Shown piece by piece: positions 3,032 to 28,549 of a DNA stretch of 64,000 nt. Under the pieces are notes generated by a model. That model was not told the DNA's origin and did no database searches. It was given only the letters and a program-made list of their open reading frames with translations. Every line of letters starts with the position of its first letter. The first letter of the stretch is position 1. Source of the stretch: Aquisphaera giovannonii (GTDB lineage: Bacteria > Planctomycetota > Planctomycetia > Isosphaerales > Isosphaeraceae); the NCBI RefSeq assembly GCF_008087625.1, contig NZ_CP042997.1, forward strand, positions 3,782,001 through 3,846,000. The letters are read 5' to 3'. A program made the position numbers and the translations under genes.

Positions 3032-3087
3032 TACCGAAGGTGGGACTCGAACCCACACGGGTGTTACCCCACCGGATTTTGAGTCCG
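3032..3087 (-). repeat. Displaced 3' half of tRNA-Leu(CAA) with attachment core
   Basis: On the minus strand these 56 bp hold the 3' part of a leucine tRNA gene: anticodon loop CTCAAAA, variable arm, T-arm with GGTTCGAGTCC and acceptor 3' strand CTTCGGT. The 5' half is missing. It aligns without gaps to the 3' part of the intact tRNA-Leu at 28467-28522. The 17 bp at 3071-3087 are identical to 28506-28522; the main difference is in the variable arm. Because the intact 5' half sits at the far end, this is the original host 3' half, pushed 25 kb away by integration. It also encodes the last residues and the stop codon of the integrase. Confidence 0.9.
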
Positions 3088-4428
3088 CGCGCCCTCGATC
3101 GGAAGTAACTTGCCAGTCAATCGGTTGCGCTTCGGGGCGAGGTCGTCGGTAGCATTTTCGGTAGCAGGTAGCACGGAGGACGGGCCCGGGAGCGGCCTCG
3201 AGTCGGTGCCGGTTAGGGCGGCGGTCTCGGTTCCCGGGGTGCTCGGTTTCAGCGACGGCAGCAGGGAGGCGGCGGCCTCGATGTCCACCGCCCGGGGGCG
3301 GGTGTAGCGCCCGGTCAACTCCAGGGTGCTGTGCCGCATCATACGCTGGACGACGCGGGGGCTGATGCCGGCCTGATCCGCCAACGTGGCCGTTTCGCAG
3401 CGGAGCGAGTGGAAGTCAAAAACCAGGCCCGCGGCATCGCGGTAGGGGATGCCGGCGGCGGCCAAGTCCACGCGCAACATCTCGGCTCCGCGGCCGCGGC
3501 GGGGGAAGGGGAAGATGGGCTCGCCCGGGGGCAGGGACGCGACGTAGGCGGCCAGATCGTGTGCGAGGTCGCGGGGCAGGGGGAGCGTCGCGGCCTCGCC
3601 GTTCTTGGTGTACCCGGCCGTCACGGTCACGGTCTGTGCGTGCCAGTCGAACGAGCCCGGCGTGATACTACCGATCTCCGAGAACCTCAGCCCGGTTGCC
3701 ACGGCCAGCCGATAGCAGATCGCCCGCATCGGGCCCGTCATCCGGTTATGCCGGCGGCCGAGCTCGGCGGCCTGGATCAGACGGTGAAGTTCCTCGAGAC
3801 TGATCGTGCGGCGGTCGTGGCGGCGGTCTTCTTCCGCGTTGAACCGCTCGACACCGCGCAGTGGATGCTCCCGCAATCGATGGGTGTCGTGGCACCACTT
3901 GGCGAATCCGCTGATGGCGGTCGCGTGGTGGTTGCAGGTAGCCAGGGACCGGCCCTTTTCCCTGAGGGTCGCCAATGCGGCCTGGACGCGCTCCACGGTC
4001 AGGTCGGAGAGGCGGGCCTTTGCAGTCCAGGCCATCAGCCGGTCGGCGGCGCGGGCCAGCTCCTTAGTCGCGGAATTCCCGGCCTCGATCTCCGCCAGCG
4101 GTGCGCCACGGAAGAGCGCCACGACTCGGCGGGCCCGGCTGACCGTCAGGGAGATATGCGCCCGCGTCCGCCCCTTGTCGGCTAGGTGGGCCGCGTAGGC
4201 GTCCAGGTGCTCCGCCAGCGGCCGCGCCTCGTGGTCGCGGTACGCTTCGGCCTTGGGGTCGATGATGCCCTCACGCCGGAGCGCCACGCGGTTCTCGATC
4301 TCCCGGGCGATCCGCTCCGTCACTACTTTGTCGGCTGTCCCGGTCTTCTTCCGGCGCTTGCCGTTGTGGTCGAAGTACAGGATCGTGTACTTCTTCGCGC
4401 GGGGGCTGGATTTGAAGATACTGGCCAC
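3064..4428 (-). CDS. Tyrosine-type integrase, truncated in the integrated state
   Basis: This site-specific recombinase should carry out integration and excision at tRNA-Leu. Of 454 residues, about 65-180 form a core-binding, SAM-like domain and about 205-385 the catalytic domain. The full set of catalytic residues is present: R248 (ATGLRFSE), K275, H340 and R343 (HSLR), H366 and nucleophile Y375 (GRYTRP). The start is GTG with AGGAG seven bases upstream. The tail is unusual: the last residues, RTQNPVG, are read from the tRNA-Leu fragment, and the TAA stop lies in the host tRNA variable arm. The same frame continues past the identical core at the other end of the element (28506 down to 28184), giving a predicted 559-residue protein in the excised circle. 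Catalysis should not need the missing tail; its role is unknown. Confidence 0.93.
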   Translation of the reverse strand: MASIFKSSPRAKKYTILYFDHNGKRRKKTGTADKVVTERIAREIENRVALRREGIIDPKAEAYRDHEARPLAEHLDAYAAHLADKGRTRAHISLTVSRARRVVALFRGAPLAEIEAGNSATKELARAADRLMAWTAKARLSDLTVERVQAALATLREKGRSLATCNHHATAISGFAKWCHDTHRLREHPLRGVERFNAEEDRRHDRRTISLEELHRLIQAAELGRRHNRMTGPMRAICYRLAVATGLRFSEIGSITPGSFDWHAQTVTVTAGYTKNGEAATLPLPRDLAHDLAAYVASLPPGEPIFPFPRRGRGAEMLRVDLAAAGIPYRDAAGLVFDFHSLRCETATLADQAGISPRVVQRMMRHSTLELTGRYTRPRAVDIEAAASLLPSLKPSTPGTETAALTGTDSRPLPGPSSVLPATENATDDLAPKRNRLTGKLLPIEGARTQNPVG

Positions 4429-5123: not shown

Positions 5124-5396
5124 TCACGTTTGATCCTCCGTCTGTATCGCCACCCTCTCCTCGGCTTCGTAGCGGTCCTCGACCGTAGGCGGCCGGAGGG
5201 CCGGCCCCCATCGTTGCGTGGACAGTGCTTCCCACTGCGCCTCCCTCCCGAGGCAGGCCAGCAGGTGCGGTTTGTGGATCGCCAGGGCGGCGCGTAGCTC
5301 GTCCGTGACAGCTCCACGGGGGGCGTCCACCACCAGCCGCAGCGACAACTCGATCCCCCTTGCGGCCAGCGCCTCCGTCAGTTCGTAGAGCGTCAT
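5124..5396 (-). CDS. TubC-like docking-domain protein
   Basis: The first 50 or so residues of this 90-residue protein match the pattern of the TubC N-terminal docking domain: a helix (LYELTEALAARGIELSL), a strand segment LRLVVDAPRGAVTDELRAAL, then IHKPHLLACL. In polyketide and non-ribosomal peptide synthetases this fold links subunits, but none is present here. The ATG overlaps the stop of the primase-polymerase gene (ATGA), so the two are translationally coupled. A role in docking to the replication protein is an inference from that coupling. Confidence 0.65.
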   Translation of the reverse strand: MTLYELTEALAARGIELSLRLVVDAPRGAVTDELRAALAIHKPHLLACLGREAQWEALSTQRWGPALRPPTVEDRYEAEERVAIQTEDQT

Positions 5397-7873
5397 AGCT
5401 CGAAAGCCTCCCGCCCGAGGGACTGGTCCCGATCATCCTCCGCGCGCCGGAGAATACCGGAATTACCGGGATTCGGATCGGGCGCGGCATCGGGCTGTGG
5501 ATTGGCGGTAATCGCGGTATTTCCGGGCGCGTCCAGCAGGTCGGGATGGATTTCGTAGGCGGGGCTCGGTTTCCTCCCCGGCTTGGACGGGTCGGGGGGT
5601 TCCGGCCTGGGTCGGATGGCTCCCTGGCGTCGCAATTCGTCAATGGCGGCGGCCAGTGCCCCCTGATCGTCGCGGAACCGGCGTAGGTCCGAGGTAAGGT
5701 CGGCCAGCCGGAACCACTCCTGCCCCCGACGCACGATCCATCCCAGCAGGGCCGGCACATCGGCGTTGGCGGGCCCCCGGGCAATCGCGGCGTGCGTTCT
5801 GCGGGCGTGGGACTTGAAGTACCCGACCAGTCGCCACGCGGCGTCCACCACGCGCTCCCCGGCCTCGGGCACCACGGCGGGGTCGGCGGTGGGGTCGGCG
5901 GCGTGCTCCATCAGGACCAGCACCAGGGCCAGCCGCCCGGCCAACTCGCGGAACTTGCCCCATGCGCCGCGGAGCGAGGCGGGCAGGCCGGGATCGCCCA
6001 TCTCCGCGGCGTGGAGGTCGTAGTGCTCGCGCCAGCGAGCCTTGCCGACGGCGGAAAACCGGACGACATGGGGCACGGATTGTCCCTCTTTCACAGCCAT
6101 CGGCCGGGACCAGAGGCGGGCCACGAGGACGCACCAATCGTCCAGCACATCGTCCGCGATCCCCCGCTCCGACCACTCGGGCACGGGCAGAGAGTCGGGA
6201 TAGGCGAAGAGGAACCGATCCAAGAATCCGTCCGAGCGGCCCTTGGCGTCGGCCATCTCGCGGAGCATGTCCGGCTGGATGCCCCCCACCAGTGACAGGC
6301 AAGGGTGGGGGCAACGCACGGGCACCCGGTCCTCGTGGTTGACTCGATCCTTCTTGATTGCGTCGCCGGCCCAGAGCTTGAGCGCGACGGCGCGATCGCT
6401 GCCCTTCCCCCCGGCCTTGTACTGGTTCATGCCCAACACGAACGCGGTCAATTCGTCGCGGACCATCAGCAGCCCGCGAGGGTTGTCGGCCAGGAGCAGA
6501 GGGATCGCTTCCATCGTCGCGTCGTCTATATCGATGCGACGAGGCTTCGGCTTGGGGGGCGGCACCGCTTTTTTCCCGTCGGTGCCACGCTGGCTCGCCT
6601 CTTGTTCCCAACGCTCCATCGCCGCGGCGTGCTCGGCGGCCAAAGCCTCGTCGATGCGCCGCACGGCGCGGGTCGCTGCCTTCAGCGCGGGCGTCTTACC
6701 GTCTGAGGGTGGGCCGACGCACGCGGCGAAGAGCGTAGTGCTGGCGAAGTAGCCGTGCTTGAGCAGCAGGCTGGCGGATCGGCCAATCGCCCCGGCAGCG
6801 GCCACCAGGGCGGGCACGGCCAGGAAGTCGGGGGGGCAGCCGATGGCGTCGGCGCCGTCGCGGACCAGCCGGGCAACGGGCGGGGGCAGCAGGTCCACCG
6901 GGAACGACTCCACGGAGGGCAGCGCGGATGATCGCAGCGGGGGCCAGGCGGTCGGCACGGCCTGCTCCGGCCCGGGTCGGGGACCGTGCCAACCGTTGCG
7001 GCCGGCGGCGATGCGGGAAGGGTCTCGAGGCTGATTCTGGCCCGCGTCAAGCCCGGAGCGGATTGTCTTCAGCGCCGCGGCCTCGCCGTCGTCCCGGACG
7101 TAGCCGGCGGCGGCGGCCAGCAGGCGCTGCTCGACCGTGGGACGGTCCAGCAGCCCGGCACCTACCAGTTGCCCGAGGCTGAAGGCGGCGGCGTTGAGGG
7201 TCGCGTTCCGCGCCCCGTCCCGGGCCTGTCCCACGGCTCGGCATTCAGAGTCCAGGGCCGACGAGGCGTAGCCATTCCCGACGGACGGCGCGGTCGTGGT
7301 CCAGGTGCCAGCGGCGGCCGGCTTGCCCCCCGGCGGGGCCAGGAGGACGCGGTCCAGCAAATCGAACGCGGCCTGGGGCAAGTCGGCCACGACCCAATTG
7401 CCGTTCCACTCGCGAGGCCTACCATCGGTGCCGGTCGTCGGCGGGCAGTTCGATTGCAGTTGCTTCCCGTCGCCACCGATGCGGATCTCGAGGTCGGGCA
7501 GCGAGGGCAGCTTGACGATGCCCTTCCCGTACTTCGCGAGGCGGTCATCGTAGCGGAAGACACGATGCGGCCCCCGGGCGCTCGACCACCCTAGCGTGTC
7601 GATCACTTCTCCCCCCAGCAGCTCGGCCAGTGAGTCTTCCCCTCGGGGCCCGTCGCACTCGATGTCCACGATGCCGCCCTCGGGCCCCAGCAGGAGCCCC
7701 ACGCCGGCCCTGGGGAATCGCTTGTAGGTCTCTCCGATGGTCCGCTCGGTCGGCCGCTCTGCGCCCCAGGACTTGCCTATAGGGGCCTTCTCCCCGGGCT
7801 TGATGGCAACGGGCCAGAGGTTGAGCCGTCTTAGCAGCTCTAGCGCGGTGTCGCGGGCGCTGTTGCCTCTCAT
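5393..7873 (-). CDS. Primase-polymerase with DUF3987 helicase-like region
   Basis: This 826-residue protein is the likely replication initiator of the element. Residues 8-190 form a bifunctional primase-polymerase domain: metal site IVDIECDGP (D70, E72), SSARGPHRVF with H103, and DLEIRIGGDGKQ. Residues about 320-720 match DUF3987, with a P-loop GPPSDGKT (387-394) and an acidic GLLMVRDELTAF, and a basic C-terminal region follows. The start is ATG at 7873 rather than the longer frame to 8569, because it overlaps the HTH gene stop as ATGA and the domain begins there. It is the third gene of a four-gene coupled operon. Such proteins are typical of phages, plasmids and satellites. Confidence 0.82.
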   Translation of the reverse strand: MRGNSARDTALELLRRLNLWPVAIKPGEKAPIGKSWGAERPTERTIGETYKRFPRAGVGLLLGPEGGIVDIECDGPRGEDSLAELLGGEVIDTLGWSSARGPHRVFRYDDRLAKYGKGIVKLPSLPDLEIRIGGDGKQLQSNCPPTTGTDGRPREWNGNWVVADLPQAAFDLLDRVLLAPPGGKPAAAGTWTTTAPSVGNGYASSALDSECRAVGQARDGARNATLNAAAFSLGQLVGAGLLDRPTVEQRLLAAAAGYVRDDGEAAALKTIRSGLDAGQNQPRDPSRIAAGRNGWHGPRPGPEQAVPTAWPPLRSSALPSVESFPVDLLPPPVARLVRDGADAIGCPPDFLAVPALVAAAGAIGRSASLLLKHGYFASTTLFAACVGPPSDGKTPALKAATRAVRRIDEALAAEHAAAMERWEQEASQRGTDGKKAVPPPKPKPRRIDIDDATMEAIPLLLADNPRGLLMVRDELTAFVLGMNQYKAGGKGSDRAVALKLWAGDAIKKDRVNHEDRVPVRCPHPCLSLVGGIQPDMLREMADAKGRSDGFLDRFLFAYPDSLPVPEWSERGIADDVLDDWCVLVARLWSRPMAVKEGQSVPHVVRFSAVGKARWREHYDLHAAEMGDPGLPASLRGAWGKFRELAGRLALVLVLMEHAADPTADPAVVPEAGERVVDAAWRLVGYFKSHARRTHAAIARGPANADVPALLGWIVRRGQEWFRLADLTSDLRRFRDDQGALAAAIDELRRQGAIRPRPEPPDPSKPGRKPSPAYEIHPDLLDAPGNTAITANPQPDAAPDPNPGNSGILRRAEDDRDQSLGREAFEL

Positions 7874-8130
7874 GCGCGGCCTCCAGTCTCGATCCATCGT
7901 CGGATCGTCTCGGCGCGCCAGCGGGGGCATCGCCCCATTTGCAGGTCGGGGCGGGGCAACCGACCGGCGGCCCGCTCGCGCTCGATGAGCCGGCGGGATA
8001 CGGCCAGCACGCGGGCCAAGTCCGCGATGGAAAGCATCGGCTCGATGCCGTGCGGGGCCTCGGGCGGAATGGCCGGTCTGGTGGAGGCAGGATCCGCCAG
8101 GATGGGCCGGCGGGGGCGGGTGGGAGTCAT
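7870..8130 (-). CDS. Excisionase-like helix-turn-helix protein
   Basis: An 86-residue protein whose C-terminal half has the MerR/excisionase-type winged helix: SIADLARVLAVSRRLIERE, then GRCPRWRAETIRRWIE. Proteins like this bind DNA as recombination directionality factors or small repressors. The N-terminal 30 residues are Pro-rich and probably disordered. The ATG overlaps the preceding stop (ATGA), and its own stop overlaps the primase-polymerase start, so one message likely makes all four proteins. It is the best candidate for the factor that directs excision. Confidence 0.72.
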   Translation of the reverse strand: MTPTRPRRPILADPASTRPAIPPEAPHGIEPMLSIADLARVLAVSRRLIERERAAGRLPRPDLQMGRCPRWRAETIRRWIETGGRA

Positions 8131-8330
8131 TGGCCACGCTCCGCCCGACGGGGCATCTGGCGGGGCCTACGGGTCTCGAGGGCGGACGCTCGCGTGACTC
8201 GCCAGCCCAACTCATGCAGACGCTTCTGAGCCGCGGCGGCAGCTTCGTAATCACCACGACGCAGCGCATCAAAAAATGCGTTTGATTCCACAGCCGCACG
8301 TACTTCAGGCGGTATGCCTTGATCTTCCAT
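8127..8330 (-). CDS. Small helical protein, first gene of the replication operon
   Basis: A 67-residue protein I do not recognise. It is mostly helical (VRAAVESNAFFDALRRGDYE, then AAAAAQKRLHELGWRV) with a basic tail. The ATG at 8330 is preferred to the longer frame because GAGGAG lies seven bases upstream. Its stop overlaps the next start (ATGA), and the 160 bp upstream are the probable operon promoter region. Confidence 0.6.
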   Translation of the reverse strand: MEDQGIPPEVRAAVESNAFFDALRRGDYEAAAAAQKRLHELGWRVTRASALETRRPRQMPRRAERGQ

Positions 8331-11093: not shown

Positions 11094-12034
11094 TACACAG
11101 ATGTACTGCGCAGGGACGATGACCGCCCCCGATCCGGGACGCACCTATTGCCGCGACATGAGCCGGCACGAGATCCTCTCCGCCGAGCAGGAGCGGCGCC
11201 TGGCCGAGGCCGCCGCCGCCGGCGACCGCGACGCCCGGGCCCGCCTGATCGGGGCCAACCTCCGCCTGGTCGCCAAGATCGCCGCCCGGTTCCGCAACCG
11301 GGGCATGGACTACGACGACCTGATCTGCGAGGGGAACCTCGGGCTGACCCGGGCCGCCGACCGCTTCGACCCCGGCCGGGGATGCCGGTTCGCCACGTAC
11401 GCCAAGCACTGGATCCTCGAGGCGATCCGGTCCGCCCTCAGGGACACGACCGCCACCATCCGCCTGCCCGCCCACGTGTACGTCCTGGCCCGGAAGTGGC
11501 GGCGGGCCGAGCAGCGCCTCTCCCGGGGGCTGGGCCGGATGCCGACCTCCGACGAGGTCGCGGCGCACCTGGGGCTCAGCGAGTCCCAACTGGCGATGGT
11601 GGAGAAGGCGCAGTGGGCCGGCCGGCTCCGGCTCGAGGGCGCCCTCTCCGACGGCGGCGAGGGCTGGTCCCTGGACGAGGCGGTGGACGGCTCCGAGGCC
11701 CCGGGGTGCGACCTGGAGCGGGCCGACGAGCGGGCCGAGGTGCTGCGGCGGATGGGCCGGCTGGAAGACTGCGAGCGGGCGGTCGTCACCCTGCGGTACG
11801 GGCTGGGGGGCGAGGCCCCGCGGACGCTGGCGGAGGTCGGGCGGAGGCTGGGGGTCACCTCCGAGTGGGCCCGCCAGATCGAGCAACGAGCCGTCCGCAA
11901 GCTCGTGCTCGGAGCGGCCGCGCCGGCCCCGCGTGCCGCCAGGCGCTTCGCCTGACCGCCCGCGGACCGCGAGGTCGGCGTGGCGTCCCACGGCGGCCCG
12001 TCGCCGCCGGCCGTGCCGCCCTCGGCGTCGCCCG
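11094..12034 (+). repeat. 941-bp direct repeat, copy A (sigma gene)
   Basis: This stretch aligns without gaps to 20760-21700 at an offset of 9666 bp. It covers the whole sigma gene and about 80 bp after the stop. By eye the only differences are a few bases just before the start codon and 16 substitutions within 11451-11517. The repeats are in the same orientation, so recombination between them could delete the 9.7 kb in between. Confidence 0.93.
11101..11955 (+). CDS. Sigma-70 family sigma factor A
   Basis: This 284-residue RNA polymerase sigma factor has regions 1.2 to 4 but no long N-terminal extension. Region 1.2 starts near SRHEILSAEQERRLAEAA, region 2 has GANLRLVAKIAARFRNRGMD and GRGCRFATYAKHWILEAIR, region 3.0 has TIRLPAHVYVLARKWRR, and region 4 ends with GVTSEWARQIEQRAVRKL, the -35-binding helix-turn-helix. 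The listed ATG at 11101 may not be the real start; later ATGs at codons 7 and 20 are possible. The protein is identical to sigma B except for seven residues between 118 and 139. The residue matching E. coli sigma-70 E458, which reads the extended -10, is V128 here. Two small genes that also recur after sigma B follow. Confidence 0.88.
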   Translation: MYCAGTMTAPDPGRTYCRDMSRHEILSAEQERRLAEAAAAGDRDARARLIGANLRLVAKIAARFRNRGMDYDDLICEGNLGLTRAADRFDPGRGCRFATYAKHWILEAIRSALRDTTATIRLPAHVYVLARKWRRAEQRLSRGLGRMPTSDEVAAHLGLSESQLAMVEKAQWAGRLRLEGALSDGGEGWSLDEAVDGSEAPGCDLERADERAEVLRRMGRLEDCERAVVTLRYGLGGEAPRTLAEVGRRLGVTSEWARQIEQRAVRKLVLGAAAPAPRAARRFA

Positions 12035-12862: not shown

Positions 12863-14183
12863 GGGCCCGGGCAAAAATAACCTGAGCAACTGGAGTATCG
12901 CTGGACGGCCAGTGACGTTATCCTCTGGCCGTGCAGGATGCCACTCGCATTGAACGGATTCGGGCGAAGTTCTGCGCCCTGGACGCAGTCCTGGATGAGA
13001 GGTCCAGGCGGCAGTGGGCGGCCGCGGAGGCGCGCGAATACGGGTACGGCGGTGTGACTGCCCTATCCCTCGCCACGGGGTTGGCTCGCAACACGATCGC
13101 GGCCGGAATGCGGGAGCTCGAGTATCGCGAACTCCACCCCGACGAACCGGTCTCGACCCGGCTGCGACACAGCGGCGCGGGGCGGAAGCGCCGGACCGAG
13201 GCCGATCCCGACCTGGCCGCGGCGCTGGAGGCGCTGCTGGAGCCGCTGACGCGGGGCGACCCGATGTCGCCGTTGCGCTGGACGTGCAAGAGCACGCGAC
13301 GGTTGGCGGCAGAGTTGAGCGGGCAGGGGCATCGGGTCGGCTACCGCACGGTGGCGTGGCTGCTCCACGAGGCCGGCTACAGCCTGCAGGCCAACCGCAA
13401 GACCCGCGAGGGGAACCAGCACCCCGACCGGAACGCCCAGTTCGAGTTCATCAACGCACAGGCGGCGCGGTTCCAGAAGCGGCGCCAGCCGGTGATCTCG
13501 GTGGACACGAAGAAGAAGGAGTTGATCGGGGATTTCAAGAACGGCGGCCGCGAGTGGCGCCCCGAGGGGCGGCCGGAGCCGGTGCGCGTCCACGACTTCC
13601 GGGACAAGGAGCTGGGCAAGGCGATCCCCTACGGCGTGTACGACGTGACCAACAACCAGGGCTGGGTCAGCGTGGGGATCGATCATGACACCGCCTACTT
13701 CGCGGCCGCGAGCATCGGCCGATGGTGGCGAGAGATGGGGGCCCCCCGCTTCCCCCGCGCGACCGAGTTGTTCATCACCGCGGACGGCGGGGGCAGCAAC
13801 GGTTACCGCACCCGGTTGTGGAAGGTGGCGTTGCAGGGCCTGGCCGATCAGATCGGCCTGAAGCTAACGGTGAGCCACTTCCCGCCGGGCACGAGCAAGT
13901 GGAACAAGGTGGAGCACCGGCTGTTCAGCTTCATCACACAGAACTGGCGAGGCAAGCCGCTGGTGAGCGTCCAGGTCATCGTCAACTTGATCGCCGCCAC
14001 GCGAACCAAGAAGGGCCTGGTTGTGAGAGCCGCGCTCGATGAAGGCAAGTACGAGACGGGCATCATTGTGACCGACGAGCAAATGGCCGGGCTCCAGTTG
14101 AAGCCCGCGAGCTTCCACGGCGAATGGAATTACACCATCAAGCCGCGCTCGAGAACTTGATCAGTTTATTTTTGCCCGGTCCC
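12863..14183 (+). mobile_element. ISAzo13-like insertion sequence, 1321 bp
   Basis: The ends form 25-bp terminal inverted repeats: 12863-12887 matches the reverse complement of 14159-14183 at 22 of 25 positions, with CCGGGCAAAAATAA shared. A TTA on each side (12860-12862 and 14184-14186) looks like a 3-bp target duplication. One full-length transposase gene fills the element. It inserted just after the ribbon-helix-helix gene of cassette A, separating it from a decayed Crp-type fragment. Confidence 0.85.
12931..14160 (+). CDS. ISAzo13 family transposase
   Basis: A 409-residue transposase, complete and apparently functional. The N-terminal 130 residues hold a helix-turn-helix (GGVTALSLATGLARNTIAAG), followed by RWTCKSTRRLAAEL. 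The DDE catalytic core is marked by VISVDTKKKELIGDF, ELFITADGGGSNGYRT and SHFPPGTSKWNKVEHRLFS, the last giving the glutamate. The start is GTG at 12931, 68 bp inside the left inverted repeat, and the stop lies in the right one. No frameshift is seen. Confidence 0.87.
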   Translation: MQDATRIERIRAKFCALDAVLDERSRRQWAAAEAREYGYGGVTALSLATGLARNTIAAGMRELEYRELHPDEPVSTRLRHSGAGRKRRTEADPDLAAALEALLEPLTRGDPMSPLRWTCKSTRRLAAELSGQGHRVGYRTVAWLLHEAGYSLQANRKTREGNQHPDRNAQFEFINAQAARFQKRRQPVISVDTKKKELIGDFKNGGREWRPEGRPEPVRVHDFRDKELGKAIPYGVYDVTNNQGWVSVGIDHDTAYFAAASIGRWWREMGAPRFPRATELFITADGGGSNGYRTRLWKVALQGLADQIGLKLTVSHFPPGTSKWNKVEHRLFSFITQNWRGKPLVSVQVIVNLIAATRTKKGLVVRAALDEGKYETGIIVTDEQMAGLQLKPASFHGEWNYTIKPRSRT

Positions 14184-20759: not shown

Positions 20760-21700
20760 TACGTCGATGTACTGCGCAGGGACGATGACCGCCCCCGATC
20801 CGGGACGCACCTATTGCCGCGACATGAGCCGGCACGAGATCCTCTCCGCCGAGCAGGAGCGGCGCCTGGCCGAGGCCGCCGCCGCCGGCGACCGCGACGC
20901 CCGGGCCCGCCTGATCGGGGCCAACCTCCGCCTGGTCGCCAAGATCGCCGCCCGGTTCCGCAACCGGGGCATGGACTACGACGACCTGATCTGCGAGGGG
21001 AACCTCGGGCTGACCCGGGCCGCCGACCGCTTCGACCCCGGCCGGGGATGCCGGTTCGCCACGTACGCCAAGCACTGGATCCTCGAGGCGATCCGGTCCG
21101 CCCTCAGGGACACGACACCCACGATCCGGGTGCCGAACCACGTGTACCGCCTACTCTGGAAGTGGCGGCGGGCCGAGCAGTACCTCTCCCGGGGGCTGGG
21201 CCGGATGCCGACCTCCGACGAGGTCGCGGCGCACCTGGGGCTCAGCGAGTCCCAACTGGCGATGGTGGAGAAGGCGCAGTGGGCCGGCCGGCTCCGGCTC
21301 GAGGGCGCCCTCTCCGACGGCGGCGAGGGCTGGTCCCTGGACGAGGCGGTGGACGGCTCCGAGGCCCCGGGGTGCGACCTGGAGCGGGCCGACGAGCGGG
21401 CCGAGGTGCTGCGGCGGATGGGCCGGCTGGAAGACTGCGAGCGGGCGGTCGTCACCCTGCGGTACGGGCTGGGGGGCGAGGCCCCGCGGACGCTGGCGGA
21501 GGTCGGGCGGAGGCTGGGGGTCACCTCCGAGTGGGCCCGCCAGATCGAGCAACGAGCCGTCCGCAAGCTCGTGCTCGGAGCGGCCGCGCCGGCCCCGCGT
21601 GCCGCCAGGCGCTTCGCCTGACCGCCCGCGGACCGCGAGGTCGGCGTGGCGTCCCACGGCGGCCCGTCGCCGCCGGCCGTGCCGCCCTCGGCGTCGCCCG
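20760..21700 (+). repeat. 941-bp direct repeat, copy B (sigma gene)
   Basis: Partner of 11094-12034, same orientation and no gaps. Identity continues about 80 bp past the stop codon and ends abruptly at GCGTCGCCCG. All coding differences lie within 21117-21183. Confidence 0.93.
20767..21621 (+). CDS. Sigma-70 family sigma factor B
   Basis: A 284-residue sigma factor, identical to sigma A outside residues 118-139. The variable segment here is TIRVPNHVYRLLWKWRRAEQ with Y at position 139. Compared with sigma A the changes are A118P, L122V, A124N, V128R, A130L, R131W and R139Y; five further codons differ silently. In known sigma factors this is region 3.0 (2.5), whose helix contacts the extended -10 element and the -10 upstream edge; position 128 aligns with E. 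coli E458. The rest of regions 2 and 4 is unchanged, so core binding and -35 reading should be the same. It heads cassette B. Confidence 0.88.
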   Translation: MYCAGTMTAPDPGRTYCRDMSRHEILSAEQERRLAEAAAAGDRDARARLIGANLRLVAKIAARFRNRGMDYDDLICEGNLGLTRAADRFDPGRGCRFATYAKHWILEAIRSALRDTTPTIRVPNHVYRLLWKWRRAEQYLSRGLGRMPTSDEVAAHLGLSESQLAMVEKAQWAGRLRLEGALSDGGEGWSLDEAVDGSEAPGCDLERADERAEVLRRMGRLEDCERAVVTLRYGLGGEAPRTLAEVGRRLGVTSEWARQIEQRAVRKLVLGAAAPAPRAARRFA

Positions 21701-28183: not shown

Positions 28184-28522
28184 TTATTCATGCACCTTCC
28201 CGGCTGCCTCGATCATGGCCAAGATGCCTGCCCGGATCGCCCCGGGCAGGTCCGGCCAGGCGGAGACGACGGCGGCCAGGTCGGGGTCATTGGGTAGCAC
28301 GCGGGTAGCAGAATCGGTAGCAGTCGTGGGACGGACGGGTTCGGGGCCAGTCGGATACTGGCGTGATGTCGAAGTCAGATGAGCAGACGATGAGGAAGTG
28401 TTTCGCCCGGGGAAAGACGGGGTTTTGTCGCTCTCAGTCGGCTTGATGCGGGTCGATTCGGGAGAGTACCGAAGGTGGGACTTGAACCCACACCCCCTTG
28501 CGGGGACCGGATTTTGAGTCCG
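28184..28522 (-). CDS. Displaced C-terminal segment of the integrase
   Basis: This is not an independent gene: the frame has no start of its own after the tRNA. It is in frame with the integrase at 3064 across the identical 17-bp core (codon at 28511 matches codon 451 at 3076). After NP it reads VPARGCGFKSHLRYSP, translated from the tRNA half, then a Ser/Thr/Pro linker, and ends PNDPDLAAVVSAWPDLPGAI and RAGILAMIEAAGKVHE. That last stretch resembles the helical tail I know from planctomycete tyrosine recombinases. In the excised circle it would be joined to the catalytic part. Confidence 0.85.
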   Translation of the reverse strand, partial: RTQNPVPARGCGFKSHLRYSPESTRIKPTESDKTPSFPGRNTSSSSAHLTSTSRQYPTGPEPVRPTTATDSATRVLPNDPDLAAVVSAWPDLPGAIRAGILAMIEAAGKVHE

Positions 28523-28549
28523 GCGCGTCTGCCATTCCGCCACTTCGGC
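28467..28549 (-). tRNA. tRNA-Leu (CAA), intact
   Basis: An 83-nt class II tRNA: acceptor GCCGAAG, D-arm, anticodon arm CCGGACTCAAAATCCGG with anticodon CAA, long variable arm CCCCGCAAGGGGG, T-arm GTGGGTTCAAGTCCCAC, acceptor CTTCGGT and discriminator A. CCA is not encoded. The first acceptor pair is G1-U72, a wobble. The 5' part belongs to the host; everything from the anticodon arm to the 3' end was supplied by the element. Confidence 0.93.

Follow-up and report, generated by a model that had tools for sequence, protein, structure and literature searches.

A standalone TubC_N docking protein as a probable adaptor of a mobile-element primase-helicase in Aquisphaera giovannonii

The window analyzed here, a 64,000-nucleotide stretch of the Aquisphaera giovannonii genome (contig NZ_CP042997.1), contains an operon of four overlapping minus-strand genes, the last of which encodes a 90-residue protein with a TubC_N docking domain and the third a replication protein whose C-terminus resembles a docking tail. 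Small proteins of this kind recur directly behind replication enzymes that end in similar, peg-like tails, which suggests that they are helper proteins probably clipped onto the replication machine. For the family as a whole, we consider it quite likely that pairing of beta-hairpin docking (bHD) domains with short linear motifs (SLiMs) attaches small, often zinc-ribbon, subunits to mobile-element helicase-primases, where we infer both the binding itself and the function of the attached part. Confidence in docking is lower for the window copy because its hairpin is short, as described below.

A docking domain in a replication operon

The first-pass annotation of this DNA had described the four genes as fully coupled by ATGA overlaps, and each of the three overlaps can be read in the sequence: on the minus strand, ATGA at 8130-8127, 7873-7870, and 5396-5393 supplies the TGA stop of one open reading frame (ORF) and the ATG start of the next. 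Four-base overlaps are frequent in bacterial operons; what goes beyond chance is the recurring pairing of a standalone TubC_N protein with a replication protein. The third gene (5393..7873, minus strand) encodes an 826-residue protein, a predicted primase-helicase with PHROGs matches to DNA helicase/primase, in which both a Prim-Pol domain (PF09250, 43.3 bits against a cut-off of 22.8) and DUF3987 (PF13148, 218.5 against 27) exceed the Pfam cut-off. The last seven codons of this gene (5396..5416, minus strand) spell the SLiM-like tail GREAFEL. The fourth gene (5124..5396, minus strand) encodes the 90-residue protein, whose residues 5-49 match TubC_N (PF18563) with an E value of 6.6e-8 and 33 bits against a curated cut-off of 26, which upholds the earlier reading of a TubC-like domain. 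Beyond the docking domain lies a short helical C-terminal part carrying the sequence EERVAIQTE.

Pfam finds no synthetase domain in the 90-residue protein or elsewhere in the operon, and the catalytic domain that follows the docking domain in subunits of nonribosomal peptide synthetases (NRPS) and polyketide synthases (PKS) is absent, so the remark that the domain sits beside a replication protein with no synthetase present also stands. In a profile search of the 10.5-Mb genome, this protein is the only TubC_N match. These two results lead us to reject a broken synthetase, and the recurring linkage described in the next section leads us to reject a chance profile match. By profile, the protein belongs to the bHD family without being a synthetase subunit, and by analogy it would function as bHD-SLiM pairs do, though in a new setting.

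TubC_N is the bHD domain. In NRPS and PKS, it captures the C-terminal five residues of the subunit upstream, which join it as an extra beta-strand and form two salt bridges (PMC6195595, PMC9113145); a review describes docking domains of this type for NRPS and hybrid PKS-NRPS assembly lines (PMC9113145). In its predicted model, a relative of the window protein (locus L083) is a bHD fold: helix at residues 3-12, strands at 16-20 and 23-27, and helices at 35-43 and 45-55; its first 50 residues have a predicted local distance difference test score (pLDDT) of 93-96. This model aligns with the bHD domains of AerJ (Z 10.5, 1.4 Å over 56 residues), EpoB (Z 10.2, 1.9 Å over 60), and enacyloxin (Z 8.9, 1.1 Å over 56), and Foldseek matches it to EpoB with an E value of 1.4e-3 and a probability of 1.00.

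Linkage to replication enzymes and their C-terminal tails

TubC_N was surveyed in 392 genomes of Planctomycetota, 41 of which contain a match, and in 297 genomes of Acidobacteriota (the phylum of genome G392), 27 of which do. Of the matching places, 48/56 and 30/36, respectively, were examined; the 8 left out of the former lie in frames of 695 to 5,198 residues, and 6 were left out of the latter. A local TubC hidden Markov model was built on 25 hand-trimmed domains from the two surveys. Counting as standalone any protein with fewer than 300 residues from the start of the TubC_N domain, we obtained 50 such proteins, 36 from Planctomycetota and 14 from Acidobacteriota. The start codon overlaps the stop of the upstream ORF as an exact ATGA in 36 of the 50 and lies within 20 bases of it in 44, and a recognizable helicase or primase stands just upstream in 35. 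In 13 cases the partner carries DUF3987, 12 of them identified by position and the other in genome G674. When 30 other upstream ORFs were searched against Pfam, 20 exceeded the cut-off, matching AAA_25 (8), DUF3631 (6), D5_N/DUF5906 (2), DUF927 (2), DnaB (1), and UvrD (1); two more gave matches below it (DUF927 at L072 and two helix-turn-helix families at L188), and the remaining 8 had no Pfam match. Two further partners were recognized otherwise, L020 as a DNA polymerase/primase by PHROGs and L180 by its place behind a DUF3631 gene. The pairing in the window is one instance of a linkage seen across two phyla, in which the upstream protein comes from several helicase and primase families that are unrelated to one another; an absence of linkage elsewhere would have counted against the reading in the first-pass annotation. 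The TubC_N copies that are not standalone sit, as far as can be read, on large proteins that are mostly NRPS-type synthetases.

What is attached to the docking domain varies. At least two CxxC pairs occur in 16 of the 50 standalone proteins, which suggests, from the motif, zinc ribbons in about a third of them. The EERVAIQTE ending of the window protein recurs as EERAAIQAE at L019 and as ERVCIQAE at L029, where the partner is again DUF3987, and another standalone type ends in GYVLGERLGIADxLGxxTHPGSPAWLVAVGES. A shared receptor with varied cargo is what makes the family adaptor-like.

The tails of the replication partners (REAFEL in the window; elsewhere REVEYL, REVGEL, TEVIEL, REVFEL, REHFEL, WGEL, and WGEV) resemble those found ahead of synthetase-borne TubC_N in the same surveys (REEIDI, VEEFTI, REELRL, and EEFGEI), and EEFGEI, from a truncated NRPS (L165), nearly matches EEWGEL of a replication partner (L136). 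As a contrast set, 80 genome loci and 2 viral loci were collected by DUF3987 similarity alone, with search seeds that were TubC-linked; a TubC_N ORF lies downstream in 37 and is absent in 45. After three loci at contig ends (L109, L131, and L150) were dropped and tails sharing their last seven residues were counted once, 33 tails with TubC_N and 41 without remained. A position-specific scoring matrix (PSSM) from 32 tails of partners other than DUF3987 (among them that of the truncated NRPS L165, omitted in the tree-stage analysis) separates the two groups with an area under the curve (AUC) of 0.91 (p 8e-10). Scores of at least 4 are reached by 23/33 tails with TubC_N, 0/41 without, and 2/74 control pairs with ATGA overlaps, from which L085 had been removed because its locus carries a frame-broken TubC_N. 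A matrix from 13 NRPS tails alone, in which L166, L171, and L192 were kept though their upstream ORF was apparently mischosen, still separates the groups (AUC 0.81, p 3e-6), with few tails above the threshold of 4 (5/33 against 0/41). On this NRPS matrix, the window tail GREAFEL scores 4.3, and 10 of 606 background ORF tails reach 4.

The same separation is seen in a second family. Among 46 DUF3631 places, 42 were usable (the fragments L245 and L246 were left out, as were L205 and L235), 9 with TubC_N and 33 without, and a matrix separates their tails with an AUC of 0.89 (p 2e-4). The tails behind this matrix include a single one from DUF3631 (L180, identical in place to L217); its score is low, so that it biases against the result. 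A simple rule, a hydrophobic final residue preceded by at least two acids among six residues, is obeyed by 7/9 DUF3631 tails with TubC_N and 3/33 without, and one of these three (L242) has a weak TubC_N-like stretch after it. At the DUF3631 genes L221, L226, and L242, the next ORF has a TubC_N-like start below threshold; the TubC-like family is probably wider than PF18563 picks up.

A tree of 77 DUF3987 domains was built without the distant L082 and the stop-interrupted L128. On this tree, the TubC_N label requires 20 changes and the tail label 19. Since 6 of 500 shuffles of the TubC_N label were as low (shuffled mean 25.8), the label is only moderately clustered. Few DUF3987 branches are well supported, so a strict test yields just four independent pairs, in which the tail agrees in 2.8 on average and opposes in 0.4. 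Among close relatives, the tail changes along with the presence of TubC_N: L116, with TubC_N, ends in GWGTL, and L127 and L146, without it, end in ESDRE and AGHEM.

A proposed mechanism and its alternatives

We propose that the 90-residue protein serves the element's own primase-helicase as a bHD adaptor subunit. Its TubC_N domain would grip the 826-residue Prim-Pol/DUF3987 protein by the final five to seven residues of that chain (...GREAFEL), and this tail would extend the hairpin by a beta-strand, in the way known for C-terminal SLiMs in NRPS and PKS. The ATGA overlap would yield both chains together, tail first and then receptor, in the gene order of synthetase operons. The remainder of the small protein, thereby held on the helicase, would probably bind DNA or recruit another replication factor. 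The suggestion in the first-pass annotation that the domain had been adopted as an adaptor is supported by the recurrent linkage and the tails; binding, and the role of the small protein, stay at the level of that suggestion. More broadly, we lean slightly toward a portable bHD-SLiM assembly code outside natural-product synthesis, by which mobile elements of at least two phyla would attach exchangeable small subunits to replicative helicases and primases of unrelated families (DUF3987, DUF3631, AAA_25, D5, DUF927, DnaB, and UvrD) via one common C-terminal peg; the code would have passed between replication modules and NRPS/PKS genes, and the pegs of synthetases and replisomes may still cross-bind.

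Several results weigh against docking through such tails. Ten of the 33 TubC-linked DUF3987 tails score below 4, and the simple rule is broken by 12 of the 32 training partners, for some of which the wrong upstream ORF may have been chosen. With the matrix from partners other than DUF3987, 47 of the 606 tails in the full set of long ORFs, which includes TubC-linked ones, score at least 4. The strict independent-pairs test, with its four pairs, is not significant, a level that is out of reach for so few, and on four annotated plasmids (L194-L197) no TubC_N lies next to the DUF3987 protein. In the window itself, the TubC_N domain is three residues short at the hairpin turn when aligned with its relatives. 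The model of the 90-residue protein, made with 22 relatives, contains helices at 3-12 and 32-59 (mean pLDDT 72.9) and no predicted strands, and Foldseek ranks two bHD structures at the top of its list at non-significant E values of 0.55 and 2.1. This shortened turn and strandless model could mean that the window copy is degenerate and has lost docking. We regard such a loss as unlikely, though it is the alternative to which we give the most room, given that the ORF is intact and above the Pfam cut-off, the partner tail is canonical, and EERVAIQTE has been kept.

A different possibility, somewhat less probable still, is that the small protein does dock and then serves as a brake instead of a helper, regulating copy number or induction by keeping the helicase-primase inactive until it is required. 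Integrases and an excisionase-like helix-turn-helix gene are present on some of the elements, which may be quiescent, and the great diversity of the attached parts would suit such a role; the paired CxxC motifs in 16 of 50 proteins, suggesting zinc ribbons, are more typical of nucleic-acid binding, and translational coupling would supply both proteins simultaneously. The acidic-hydrophobic tail could also do another job altogether, for example as a tip like that of single-stranded DNA-binding (SSB) proteins that recruits host replication factors, with TubC_N only traveling along. SSB proteins do have acidic tails that end in a hydrophobic residue, but the tail here tracks the presence of TubC_N in two helicase families and resembles NRPS SLiMs, as in the pair EEFGEI and EEWGEL, which makes this explanation improbable. 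We find it very hard to credit the motif to a by-product of the downstream gene's Shine-Dalgarno sequence and ATGA overlap: a GGAG-type sequence does encode Gly/Glu near the end of the upstream protein, and 24 of 39 TubC_N pairs have a Shine-Dalgarno-like stretch, but among ATGA pairs the simple rule is obeyed by only 2/32 controls that bear such a stretch (the control tail of L077, which precedes a weak TubC_N, was retained), against 18/24 TubC_N pairs with it and 11/15 without. The motif is also present where the overlap is not ATGA (L096, L135, and L026). Docking of the small subunit onto the tail thus remains the reading we prefer, and if it is correct, a class of small unannotated proteins would gain a function, the uncharacterized helicase families DUF3987, DUF3631, and DUF927 would be expected to have a stable subunit, there would be a reason for their acidic C-terminal tails, and synthetase engineering would have more natural peg-and-socket pairs to draw on.

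Comparable systems, wider occurrence, and genomic setting

The closest parallel is with the bHD-SLiM pairs of NRPS and hybrid PKS-NRPS (TubC, EpoB, Kj12ABC, enacyloxin, and AerJ), with which the proteins described here share the domain by profile, the fold in one relative, an upstream acidic-hydrophobic tail, and the gene order, often with ATGA coupling. Unlike in those pairs, the domain is either on its own or accompanied by zinc ribbons or helices in place of synthetase domains, and its partner is a mobile-element helicase-primase instead of a carrier protein. The CCPol-MP/Cch2 operon of SCCmec likewise encodes a small protein with a mobile-element primase-polymerase; there, MP complexes with the primase-polymerase and supplies single-strand DNA binding and priming, and the accessible text does not describe it as a docking domain (PMC7581432). 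We claim no homology between the two systems. In the PrimQH/all3500 proteins with DUF3987 or DUF927, a primase is fused to the same putative helicase families, for which, in the case of DUF3987, helicase activity is a prediction; the words docking, TubC, and small protein are absent from the main text of that paper (PMC5862659). A literature search, with subscription papers mostly outside its coverage, returned no paper that associates a TubC_N or bHD domain with a helicase or primase. Some such proteins presumably carry the NCBI label "TubC N-terminal docking domain-related protein".

Some large proteins with an N-terminal TubC_N do not resemble synthetases: one reads as glycosyltransferase-like (L016), one as aminotransferase-like (L024), and others as coiled or repeat proteins (L170, L173, and L181); the upstream tails of several of them are SLiM-like, e.g., DQWGSV and REVFEL. 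These large proteins indicate that bHD docking extends past synthetases by other routes too. On two viral contigs (L081 and L200), a TubC_N ORF lies just upstream of genes that read as terminase- and portal-like, named without a profile match, and from these the module seems to occur in phages as well. tblastn searches of 50,697 phage records, with two of the standalone TubC_N proteins as queries, gave no match, and the plasmid records queried matched only at synthetase-like or unrelated places (frames of about 1,400 residues at L193 and L199). For the DUF3987 protein of the window, phage and plasmid records contain distant relatives only.

The operon opens with a gene for a 67-residue protein (8127..8330, minus strand) that has no family above cut-off. 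It is followed by a gene for an 86-residue helix-turn-helix, excisionase-like protein (7870..8130, minus strand), which matches DNA-binding/excisionase families in PHROGs (phrog_597, 8.4e-9; phrog_66, 1.2e-7) and HTH_17 in Pfam below the cut-off (23.5 against 27). Farther down the element, on the same strand, lies a tyrosine integrase (3064..4428, minus strand; PF00589, 58.8 bits; phrog_1, 4e-42). By loose pairwise comparison, similar helix-turn-helix ORFs accompany 17 of 80 DUF3987 loci elsewhere, and similar integrases accompany 19 of 80.

The 3' end of the integrase gene adjoins an att-like 27-bp copy of the 3' end of tRNA-Leu(CAA) (3032..3058, minus strand), which blastn aligns at 96% over 27 bp to that of the intact tRNA. 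The intact gene, located by ARAGORN at 28466-28549 in the same orientation as the fragment, is 25.4 kb away. This arrangement is what integration of an element of at most 25.4 kb into a tRNA gene leaves behind, and it suggests an island between the two. The presumed island may be composite, with a transposase-like gene and duplicated sigma-factor genes inside it. The former encodes a 409-residue protein at 12931-14160 (phrog_34518, 434 bits) that reads as a transposase and may be ISAzo13-like, and the latter are two near-identical genes for sigma-70-type factors of 284 residues each, at 11101-11955 and 20767-21621, about 9.7 kb apart.

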